A stretch of 24,606 nt of DNA, from IMG/VR virus record IMGVR_UViG_3300025781_000070, positions 1 through 24,606 of that record; one strand, written 5' to 3'. This document shows positions 5,973 to 21,963 of the stretch, piece by piece. Under the pieces are notes generated by a model, which saw only the letters and a list, made by a program, of their open reading frames with translations, was not told the DNA's origin and made no database searches. This DNA comes from a virus. Made by a program: the position numbers and the translations under genes. How positions within the stretch are numbered: position 1 is the stretch's first letter; every line of letters begins with the position of its first letter.

Positions 5973-6000
5973 GACTTGTCTCACAATAGGGTATGAATAG
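5973..6000. repeat. 28-bp direct repeat, downstream copy
   Basis: Identical over 28 bases to 6821-6848. It starts one base after the stop codon of the polymerase-like gene and contains the 16-base core ACTTGTCTCACAATAG. Here it is untranslated, or in a short out-of-context frame. Confidence 0.95.
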
Positions 6001-6001
6001 A

Positions 6002-7141
6002 TTATGTCTTTAGTAAAGGATTATATTCCAGATTTATATTGAAACCCGTTTTATTATAAACCCATACATATAATTTTTCCTTGTTTATTTCTTTTTCACA
6101 TACGAATCCGTCGTGTTCTAAGAAACATTTGTTATTAGTTGTATGTAAATAATCATTTATTGCATTAAGTACTTTCCTTTCTAAGTCAAAATATACAATG
6201 GCTTTTTGTTTACTTGATATAGGTAACATTCGTTGTTTACCTGTTTTAGTAGTAATTTGTTTTCTAGGTAATGTGGGTTTGATGTAATTCCAACATGTTT
6301 TGATGTCCTCACGTAATTCTTTTATATATGGGTGTTGTTTAAGAAATTCAATACGGGCTTTGTCTCCGTTTAATATTTGATAGATATCTGAATCTTTGTT
6401 GTTACCTAGTTGGGCTCCCATTAATAATGCATTGATAATAACTTTGGCTTGTTCATAAGTTATTTCTGTTTCTGTTGCCAATAAATTTCTAACTTGTTTT
6501 CTGTTGTTTAGGTATTCAGTTAATGCAGACAAATGTAAATCCATGGGTCCTTGAATATATTTGTTATCAACAATGATTTCTGGGATTTGCTGACTATGTT
6601 GATATATCAATGTAGGAGCACAGCATTCAATGTCATATTGATGTGTTAAGTTATGTTCATAAAATAACTTTTGTTTATATTCTTTTCTTATACGTTGCAA
6701 TGGATGCCAAAGTCTATTTGATTGGTCTTTATACTTAAAGTCTTTACTAATTAATTCAGTTGAATATTCTGTGGATACAAATTCATTTGTTACTTGTCTC
6801 ACAATAGTAGAGTTATCATTGACTTGTCTCACAATAGGGTATGAATAGTTAACTGTTAATGATTCAATTAATTCATTGATGCCATTAACATTTTTCTTGT
6901 ATTCCTTACATACACTATTGCCCTGACCAATATTAAATCTATACTTGTCATTAGTACAAATCAGTAGTTTAGTCCTTAACCACTTGGATAAATTATCTGA
7001 TTGATTTCCTAAATATTTGTCTATGTAACGAGTACTCCACTGATGTGATTTACTAGCACTTAAATGACTGTTAACGAAACCAATGGCTATTTTAATTCGT
7101 TTACGTACACGTGGGTCATTGATGTTTGGTTTATATGACAT
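6002..7141 (-). CDS. Small family A polymerase-like protein, 379 aa
   Basis: Residues about 165-379 carry a set resembling the catalytic motifs of the DNA polymerase I / T7 RNA polymerase superfamily. Motif-A-like YDIECCAPTL has D170 and E172. Motif-B-like K233-x7-M241-G242-x3-G matches the K-x7-Y-G spacing of polymerase I but with Met for Tyr. Motif-C-like LEHDGF has H343-D344. Residues 20-80 are basic and helical (KSHQWSTRYIDKYLG) and may bind DNA. No exonuclease domain is present and the protein is far shorter than typical family A enzymes. I chose the ATG at 7141 over a GTG at 7147. It overlaps the previous gene by 11 bases. Residues 99-116 are encoded by iteron-like repeats (PIVRQV, TIVRQV). 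The polymerase call is inference; a replication initiator or primase-like role is possible. Confidence 0.6.
   Translation of the reverse strand: MSYKPNINDPRVRKRIKIAIGFVNSHLSASKSHQWSTRYIDKYLGNQSDNLSKWLRTKLLICTNDKYRFNIGQGNSVCKEYKKNVNGINELIESLTVNYSYPIVRQVNDNSTIVRQVTNEFVSTEYSTELISKDFKYKDQSNRLWHPLQRIRKEYKQKLFYEHNLTHQYDIECCAPTLIYQHSQQIPEIIVDNKYIQGPMDLHLSALTEYLNNRKQVRNLLATETEITYEQAKVIINALLMGAQLGNNKDSDIYQILNGDKARIEFLKQHPYIKELREDIKTCWNYIKPTLPRKQITTKTGKQRMLPISSKQKAIVYFDLERKVLNAINDYLHTTNNKCFLEHDGFVCEKEINKEKLYVWVYNKTGFNINLEYNPLLKT
6792..6848. repeat. Tandem 30-bp-spaced repeat inside the polymerase-like gene
   Basis: The 16-base core ACTTGTCTCACAATAG occurs at 6792-6807 and again at 6822-6837, exactly 30 bases apart. 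The second copy is part of a longer 28-base block (6821-6848) repeated identically at 5973-6000. Confidence 0.95.
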
Positions 7142-7436
7142 AATCACACTCTAAATCATTCCAACAACTGATTATTAACATACACATATAACGTTTTTGT
7201 TTACTTGTTAATATTTGATTCATTGGATCTTTAGCAATAGTAATTAAGTCAATTAAGTCTAACCAATATTCACCATTGTGATTACTTAAATATTTTGTTT
7301 TGGTAAGTCGTTCTGCCCATAGTATTACATCACCTATAGGTAAGTGGTCTATGACATACCAAAAGTCATAGTTCTTTTCATAGTTCTCAAATTCAGTGGC
7401 AATACTGAGTTGAGTAAATTCTTCAATGGAATTCAT
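7131..7436 (-). CDS. Hypothetical protein, 101 aa
   Basis: A small acidic helical protein of unknown family, rich in Tyr, Trp and Asp/Glu (for example ENYEKNYDFWYVIDHL near residues 17-32). It has a strong ribosome binding site (AGGAGA, spaced five bases) and an unusually long untranslated region upstream containing a perfect 11-bp hairpin and a TATAAATA octamer. Its 3' end overlaps the polymerase-like gene, so the two are probably translated together. No motif suggests an enzymatic role. It could be an accessory or regulatory partner of the downstream protein; that is inferred only from the overlap. Confidence 0.7.
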   Translation of the reverse strand: MNSIEEFTQLSIATEFENYEKNYDFWYVIDHLPIGDVILWAERLTKTKYLSNHNGEYWLDLIDLITIAKDPMNQILTSKQKRYMCMLIISCWNDLECDYVI

Positions 7437-7728: not shown

Positions 7729-8181
7729 TTATACCTTTAATTTACAATTATCCCCATGATGTTTAGGGTATACATGAACAGGAATATCTCTGTTACAATG
7801 TACACAAAGTTTACATGGTTGCTTTTTACCTGTACGTGGCCCTGGCATTCCTGGCATCCAACCAAATACTTTGCCACGACCCTTGTTTAACATATCTTGT
7901 GTGTTTTGTTTTCTTGTACCTAACCAAAGATGTTTTGGGTTGATACAACTGGGATTGTCGCAAGTATGACATACACACATACCAATTGGTATTTTGCCTA
8001 TGTGTTCTTCATAACTTACACGATGTGCTGTACGCATACGTTTTTCATCACGTATTAGTCCATAGCCCAAATTGTTTTTACTAGCCTGCCACTCCCAACA
8101 GTCAGTATTTTGATTGATGGTAATTTTATCTAATAGTTTGTCTAGCAAACTTAATTGCATACATCCAATATATCTTGTCAT
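7729..8181 (-). CDS. HNH homing endonuclease, 150 aa
   Basis: A stand-alone HNH nuclease of the zinc-stabilised type common in phages as selfish homing enzymes. The N-terminal CWEWQASKNNLGYG (residues 28-41) leads to AHRVSYEEHIGKIP (52-65), then the core CHTCDNPSCINPKHLWLGT (71-89) with H72, N81 and H84 as likely catalytic or metal residues and C71, C74 and C79 as zinc ligands, followed by the usual N93-x2-D96 element. A C-terminal extension with C123, C126, C129, H141, H142 and C146 looks like a second zinc knuckle that may help DNA recognition. A strong AGGAG site precedes the ATG. The gene has its own promoter-like octamer, an adjoining palindrome and its own terminator, typical of an inserted cassette. 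No intron or intein is visible. Confidence 0.9.
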   Translation of the reverse strand: MTRYIGCMQLSLLDKLLDKITINQNTDCWEWQASKNNLGYGLIRDEKRMRTAHRVSYEEHIGKIPIGMCVCHTCDNPSCINPKHLWLGTRKQNTQDMLNKGRGKVFGWMPGMPGPRTGKKQPCKLCVHCNRDIPVHVYPKHHGDNCKLKV

Positions 8182-21417: not shown

Positions 21418-21425
21418 TATTTAGT
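21418..21425 (-). promoter_or_regulatory. Late-promoter-like octamer ACTAAATA before the portal gene
   Basis: Minus-strand ACTAAATA overlaps the stop codon of the nucleotidyltransferase-like gene. It would give a leader of about 22 bases before the portal ATG. A second CTAAATA at 21435-21441 is inside the upstream coding region. Confidence 0.45.
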
Positions 21426-21963
21426 CTTTATTAATATTTAGAAATTCTTCGATTGTCATGATAGGCAATTGCCCATGCTGTTTTATACAATCTAGTTGTT
21501 TTTGCTTTAGTTTTGAATGTATAAAGTTACCACGTACTGTGTTGGGGCCTTCTGTTTTGAAATGATTGTCTTTTTTATACTCACGAATGTTTCTAGTACC
21601 ATTACCATTGTCATATTCCCAATAGTCTAAAAATATAAATTCTGTGTTGTTTGGCTTGTTATCAACAACAGTAATTTTATTATCCATCCATTTTGTATCA
21701 ACCAATATGTTACATCTAAAACCCAAATCAACACCCATAATTAATAGATATTCTAAGTTGTTGATATCATTGACTTTTCCAGTATAAGCAATATCAACAT
21801 CACTTGCGCTATTAATATCATATATGCTTGAACCCAATATATTGCATTCTAAATTGCTAGATTTAATAATTGGTTCCATAGCAGTATACCACAAATGTAT
21901 TGCTTTAATTGTGGGTTTATCCCACATTCTATAAGTTGATATTGGACCTCTTCTATAATACAT
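21421..21963 (-). CDS. Nucleotidyltransferase-fold protein, 180 aa
   Basis: Contains a clear nucleotidyltransferase signature: G44-S45 followed by nine residues and D55-V-D57-I (LGSSIYDINSASDVDIAY), matching the hG[G/S]x9-13Dh[D/E]h pattern of the DNA polymerase beta-like superfamily. A third acidic residue may be D88 or D91 region (NILVDTKWMD). The N-terminal helix (MWDKPTIKAIHLWYTAMEPII) and basic C-terminus complete a small single-domain enzyme. Such folds transfer nucleotides to RNA, protein or small molecules; the substrate here is unknown. It lies one base after the terminase stop and ends at the portal promoter-like site, an unusual place for such an enzyme. It might modify a host factor or a tRNA, or might be inactive. 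Confidence 0.7.
   Translation of the reverse strand: MYYRRGPISTYRMWDKPTIKAIHLWYTAMEPIIKSSNLECNILGSSIYDINSASDVDIAYTGKVNDINNLEYLLIMGVDLGFRCNILVDTKWMDNKITVVDNKPNNTEFIFLDYWEYDNGNGTRNIREYKKDNHFKTEGPNTVRGNFIHSKLKQKQLDCIKQHGQLPIMTIEEFLNINKD

Follow-up and report, generated by a model that had tools for sequence, protein, structure and literature searches.

A compact family A-like polymerase gene with direct repeats in small tailed phages, a candidate one-gene replication module

The polymerase locus and its homologues

The DNA analysed here (the window) was a virus record of 24.6 kb. Pfam and PHROGs searches identified an SU10-type portal, a terminase and virion structural proteins around a gene for a compact family A-like polymerase, which ran in the same direction as the structural genes. 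As shown in Table 1, the polymerase ORF, for which a GTG at 7147 was an alternative start, overlapped the end of a 101-aa ORF. No match to the 101-aa ORF was found in a Pfam search, and its candidacy as an obligate MP-like partner was rejected because its adjacency to the polymerase gene was limited to closer relatives.

Table 1. Coordinates of the polymerase gene, its domains, residues and repeats in the window
Feature	Position	Strand	Remarks
Compact family A-like polymerase gene	6002..7141	-	379 aa, stop codon included; ATG at 7141
101-aa ORF	7131..7436	-	overlaps the polymerase gene start; kept adjacent in closer relatives only
N-domain, residues 1-98	6848..7141	-	predicted winged-helix-like DNA-binding domain (secondary structure and Foldseek)
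28-bp repeat, linker copy CTATTCATACCCTATTGTGAGACAAGTC	6821..6848	-	exact second copy; conserved position in relatives
Partial 16-bp repeat copy CTATTGTGAGACAAGT	6792..6807	-	in linker-coding DNA; three exact 16-mer copies found
R143, invariant Arg	6713..6715	-	60/60; beta-hairpin before motif A, strands 138-140 and 143-145
D170, motif A	6632..6634	-	60/60; predicted catalytic Asp
K233, motif B (O-helix) Lys	6443..6445	-	60/60; T7 gp5 O-helix register
H343-D344, motif C	6110..6115	-	60/60
28-bp repeat, 3′ copy	5973..6000	-	directly past the stop codon; 28/28 identical to the linker copy

Several other ORFs of the window were inspected. An HNH endonuclease gene (7729–8181, minus strand; Pfam HNH_3, 1.6e-12) was located upstream of the polymerase gene and its 101-aa neighbour; L002 had a similar HNH gene upstream, and in G014 that place was taken by an unrelated ORF on the opposite strand. 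Between the terminase and portal genes, a 180-aa protein (21421–21963, minus strand) contained GSSIYDINSASDVDIAYTG, resembling the GS...DxD motif of nucleotidyltransferases, and gave no match in Pfam and PHROG searches. Within the first 1500 bp, two long plus-strand ORFs (8–784 and 950–1468) looked like low-complexity frames antisense to a repetitive, minus-strand structural gene (L003, 12784–15858, is comparable).

Homologues were found by pattern-plus-tblastn scans of viral contigs, which gave 2, 20 and then 67 loci in successive rounds. Two further loci came from genome contigs, one a Legionella MAG contig and the other the Roseateles depolymerans chromosome. Sixty homologous proteins, with identity down to about 26%, were aligned. 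The records bearing the polymerase gene were mostly 31–40 kb in length. A tblastn search of GenBank phages (50,697 records) gave no significant match (none, or E ≥ 0.9), indicating that current annotation overlooks this polymerase family. That it was a common bacterial gene was rejected, since it was present in 1 of 399 genomes of one order. On the Roseateles chromosome (L102, 4732–7563, and L085), a gene for a large serine recombinase (Pfam Resolvase, 1.8e-18) was situated directly before the homologue; this locus adjoined ordinary chromosomal genes and, with its four iteron-like repeats, may be a mobile element of minimal size.

The first-pass annotation had placed the gene in a tail or virion cluster, which was true of the window and not of the family as a whole. 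Relatives carried the gene elsewhere, often antiparallel to structural genes, and thus the tail-cluster location was particular to this phage group, and a fixed tail-cluster position was rejected as a trait of the family.

Predicted fold and catalytic residues

The protein had been read as polymerase-like from an ordered motif set, YDIE (D170), K233-x7-M241-G242-x3-G246 and EHDG (H343-D344), all of which was present in the 379-aa sequence. In the alignment, D170, K233, H343 and D344 were each conserved in 60/60 homologues. These were four of only 14 invariant positions, the remainder being P5, G45, R143, Q149, Y169, R218, W284, Y317, E321 and F340; G242 and G345 were each found in 59 of the 60 proteins. 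Two residues that had been counted with the motifs turned out to be incidental: E172 was Glu in only 20/60 homologues, and position 241 varied among A, C, N, Q, S and M.

An AlphaFold2 model built with the 60-protein alignment (mean pLDDT 93.7, pTM 0.88) contained a family A-like palm and fingers. When it was compared with PDB structures by Foldseek, places 1–14 were all taken by family A DNA polymerases (probability 0.92–1.00, best E 5e-5), and mitochondrial RNA polymerases were among the weaker matches. Whole-chain TM-scores against the PDB polymerases were only 0.33–0.41, with large rmsd, indicating that the likeness was confined to the palm/fingers core. The best matches among viral models were uncharacterised phage proteins (E 2e-10, TM 0.55), followed by virophage replication proteins, with a Barbavirus protein as a weaker match. 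No exonuclease domain was found in the protein by Pfam and PHROGs searches, in agreement with the first-pass annotation. With a palm fold in a confident model and D170 and D344 invariant among the homologues, the polymerase fold suggested earlier from the motifs was supported by structure prediction and alignment.

Searches by sequence gave fainter signals. The polymerase had no match to Pfam DNA_pol_A, NCBIfam and PDB sequence searches likewise yielded nothing useful, and a weak match to PHROG 15971 (DNA polymerase I, E 0.011) was insufficient alone. An hhalign comparison with a profile of 15 bacterial Pol I proteins and T7 gp5 gave no link (probability 2%). K233 was aligned by hhalign in the register of the O-helix Lys of T7 gp5 (AKVIINALLMGA versus AKTFIYGFLYGA), with weak statistics (P 0.024). 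The O-helix signature was incomplete: the Lys (60/60) and Gly (59/60) were conserved, but K-4 had no conserved Arg and K+8 was never Tyr. K+4 was Asn in 53/60 homologues.

In motif A, the residue at D+5 (A175 in the window protein) was Ala in 55 of the 60 homologues. Pol I has Glu710 at D+5, a steric gate that excludes ribonucleotides (PMC9324360). An Ala at D+5 together with a K+8 that is never Tyr fits a polymerase domain with loose sugar selection, as in a primase, which is predicted here from the alignment.

Direct repeats, the N-terminal domain and other replication genes

The N-domain had a predicted H-H-H-beta-beta-H topology (three helices followed by a two-strand wing and one more helix; pLDDT 89). 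Its Foldseek matches in PDB were mostly winged helices of the MarR, PadR, ArsR and RTP types, none of them individually significant (best E 0.3). From this topology and these matches, the domain was predicted to be winged-helix-like.

The DNA coding for the linker between the N-domain and the polymerase domain contained one copy of a 28-bp repeat, and the two exact copies in the window compared with a chance expectation of 0.00; for the 16-mer, when as many as 2 mismatches were allowed, 0.01 copies were expected in the window. The element had the form nnnnATACCCTAKTGTNNNACAAGTC and was independent of frame, being read in different reading frames and lying partly beyond stop codons. Thus the linker peptides YPIVxQV of some homologues and IPYCxTS of others were one DNA in two frames, which recurred C-terminally.

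A search that assumed no sequence detected a direct repeat of 20–48 bp, with copies in the linker DNA and at the 3′ end, in 29/60 genes, versus no more than 15 in shuffles. Of the polymerase neighbourhoods, 43/60 contained direct repeats of 15 bp or longer, versus 61/236 other windows; the other 17 of the 60 genes had none of that length nearby. Repeats were confined to the polymerase gene, in two to four copies, and were absent before other phage genes. The usual number was two or three, spaced by about 0.8 kb rather than packed as in a tight array of iterons. Copies mostly matched inside one genome and differed among genomes; Roseateles, for example, had four copies of a different repeat sequence, one in the linker and three downstream.

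Similarity of the repeat core followed that of the N-domain when polymerase-domain similarity was fixed (partial r 0.45, 0/2000 permutations), but not that of the polymerase domain when the N-domain was fixed (r -0.09, p 0.81), in permutation tests that removed shared ancestry only partly. After removal of a divergent type, the 11-bp core still correlated with the N-domain (r 0.28, p 0.0035), and the N-domain effect over all 29 nt was not significant (p 0.11). The CATATAGTGT core type was found at exactly those six loci whose N-domain had an insertion of two residues before the third helix (TRWI-H-(D/N)NFG). Residue 67, in the putative wing, followed G/T at one core position in 26/29 cases, which was the top result among the 95 positions tested. 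An exchange of cassettes at the repeats was not favoured, because, across pairs, N-domain identity correlated with polymerase-domain identity (r 0.73).

Other replication genes were sought in the records that carried the polymerase, most of which may be incomplete. No match was found to DNA_pol_A in 13 records or to DnaB_C and DNA_pol_B in 20 records. A Walker A scan of eight virus records detected only the terminase, besides matches within structural-type ORFs, in G014, G008, G015 and G018. G022 yielded a terminase-like protein along with two small ORFs, the matches in G020 were due to chance, G016 had none, and G023 carried a single additional ATPase, which was SbcC-like. No helicase-like P-loop protein was found in G008, G014, G015, G016, G018, G020 or G022. 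The ends of the closest full relative (G014, 36,453 b) overlapped by 12 nt and joined one repetitive gene in frame, indicating that this record was close to complete; searches of Pfam and PHROGs with ten G014 ORFs that were not among the known structural genes returned no replication protein. The polymerase was the sole replication enzyme detected in the full records examined, including this near-closed 36.4-kb relative. All-against-all BLASTP of nine records identified the polymerase as the sole common gene in many pairs (e.g. G008/G023, G016/G018 and G018/G020); across unrelated records it was the sole or nearly the sole gene in common.

GC and AT skew had extremes near the gene in 4/8 records, a pattern confounded by gene orientation and therefore rejected as proof of an origin. 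Two other features of these records were seen. The nearest full relative encoded a Ferritin-like/Dps-type protein (L086, 3964–4398; Pfam Ferritin, 1.2e-18; PHROG DNA binding protein). G023 (52 kb; L099-L100) contained a 5568-aa ORF at 34943–51649 of the record, and its SbcC-like ATPase adjoined the polymerase.

Proposed function and comparison with known systems

A minimal polymerase, a primase-like enzyme or a replication initiator had been offered as alternatives in the first-pass annotation. The area was right, and the alternatives are now read together: the protein is probably all three. With moderate confidence, we regard it as an initiator, primase and polymerase in one chain that, like lambda O, recognises iterons within its own gene. 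From the computed features (the predicted fold, invariant catalytic residues, repeats that covary with the N-domain and no other recognisable replication gene), we infer repeat binding, origin function, priming and hand-over to the host. The N-domain would bind the direct repeats, as iterons, in the linker-coding DNA and just behind its own gene; this binding would turn the polymerase gene itself into the phage origin, as in lambda O, and the DNA would open. The palm/fingers domain (residues about 110–379), without an exonuclease, would make or extend primers at the origin, with D170 and D344 holding metals and K233 handling the nucleotide to be added. The fork would then pass to the host's DnaB helicase and Pol III, since the phage encodes neither. 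More tentatively, these genes may form an undescribed class of one-gene module, an initiator, primase and polymerase of about 380 aa with an in-gene origin, which moves among unrelated small tailed phages that have no other replication enzyme.

The Ala at the steric-gate position also suggests use of ribonucleotides, and the protein might instead be a compact single-subunit RNA polymerase, a relative of the T7/N4 type, with the repeats as its promoters. T7 RNA polymerase has Gly at this position. The repeats are conserved and directly oriented, mitochondrial RNA polymerases were among the weaker structural matches, and divPolA2 has likewise been suggested to be an RNA polymerase (PMC11348598). 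However, the repeats stand only at the polymerase gene and not before other phage genes, one of them lies within coding sequence, and DNA polymerases ranked well above RNA polymerases in the fold search. Moreover, the motif-B Tyr, which is Tyr639 in T7 RNA polymerase, was found in 0/60 sequences, and we consider an RNA polymerase unlikely.

We see as little likelihood in a TV-Pol-like mobile module, in which the repeats would be recombination or target sites for moves between phages and the polymerase would serve its own transposition. Such a module would agree with a gene that is often the sole one common to unrelated phages, with the large serine recombinase immediately before the Roseateles copy, an arrangement shared with TV-Pol elements (PMC2579912), and with the HNH endonuclease near the gene in the window and in L002. 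But most records have no recombinase of their own, the correlation between N-domain and polymerase-domain identities opposes cassette swapping at the linker repeat, and the gene is not bounded by the repeats, one of which falls within the ORF. Fold and catalytic residues would also suit an accessory repair or lesion-bypass polymerase, with the N-domain autoregulating its own gene at repeats that serve as operators; winged-helix domains often repress their own genes, and in the window phage the gene lies among late genes. An operator is, however, expected upstream of the start, whereas the repeats of nearly all repeat-bearing genes are in the linker and behind the stop, and these phages have no other recognisable replication gene; a repair enzyme is the reading we doubt most.

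In the literature covered (most subscription journals were outside its scope), neither this polymerase family nor a polymerase gene containing its own repeats was described. In 2008, TV-Pol-like enzymes were predicted to act as primase-polymerases, and reported tests are limited to the CCPol-MP pair (PMC2579912, PMC7581432). The present family numbers at least 60 proteins and combines a clear catalytic core with a covarying DNA site inside the gene and no helper genes, so that origin recognition, priming and polymerisation are testable with one protein and one DNA fragment. If the initiator, primase and polymerase reading is true, a single gene may start and prime the copying of a whole virus; it would reveal the minimum size of a replication module in tailed phages and how such modules jump between unrelated phages.

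The protein resembled Pol I and T7 gp5 in the order of palm and fingers, the motif A Asp, the O-helix Lys and the HD of motif C, and differed in its 379-aa length without an exonuclease, Ala in place of the steric-gate Glu, an Asn at K+4 and the absence of Tyr from K+8. The divPolA1 and divPolA2 proteins are also divergent phage family A proteins without proofreading, and divPolA2 has an unrelated N-terminal domain (PMC11348598); but they occur beside a regular DNA polymerase in phages of 80–190 kb, whereas none was found here in 13–20 records. CCPol-MP of SCCmec likewise has a family A core in a mobile element, and together the two proteins act as a DNA primase that starts preferentially at a site in the putative origin (PMC7581432, PMC10061031). 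CCPol depends on MP, a separate OB-fold protein, and on a helicase from the operon, whereas no conserved partner was found and no helicase is encoded here.

TV-Pol (Iyer, Abhiman and Aravind 2008) was described as a minimal family A core with a hairpin Arg and two Asp, was proposed to be a primase-polymerase and was reported for virophages such as Sputnik (PMC2579912). Shared with it were a minimal core without a nuclease domain (379 aa here), an absolutely conserved hairpin Arg (here R143, on hairpin 138–145), two palm Asp, occurrence in small mobile elements and viruses and a predicted role as primase plus polymerase; virophage TV-Pols were also among the best viral fold matches. For comparison with its two-helix coiled-coil thumb, helices 110–125 and 127–132 preceded the hairpin in our model. 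The present protein differed in fingers without RxxxK (K-4 variable) and with an Asp, conserved in TV-Pol fingers, in only part of the homologues (D201 in 42/60), in having no D5-like helicase fused or nearby, in a winged-helix-like N-domain rather than the all-helical domain of TV-Pol, and in its in-gene direct repeats. Profile comparisons yielded no significant sequence link to TV-Pol. It probably works like TV-Pol; because RxxxK and the D5 helicase partner were both missing, we do not file it as one. TV-Pol-like recombinase neighbours were a serine recombinase in Roseateles and, by eye, a tyrosine integrase-like ORF in G020, and most records had none.

Microcystis phage Ma-LMM01 has an ORF for a 506-aa hypothetical protein beside two transposase genes (L105, 22746–24266, minus strand). 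An hhalign comparison of this ORF with the present family gave P 0.0012 and a probability of 19%, with motifs A–C in register. This ORF, whose annotation is still that of a hypothetical protein, probably corresponds to the TV-Pol reported in 2008. As a route to the TV-Pol of other phages it was rejected, since it led to near-identical copies only.

Lambda O has an N-terminal DNA-binding domain. Its origin iterons are situated within the initiator gene (PMC5043065). Lambda O differs in lacking a polymerase domain, in working with P to load host DnaB and in its four clustered iterons; shared with the present gene are repeats inside the gene of a protein with an N-terminal DNA-binding domain (a predicted one here); the present repeats covary with this domain and are putative iterons.
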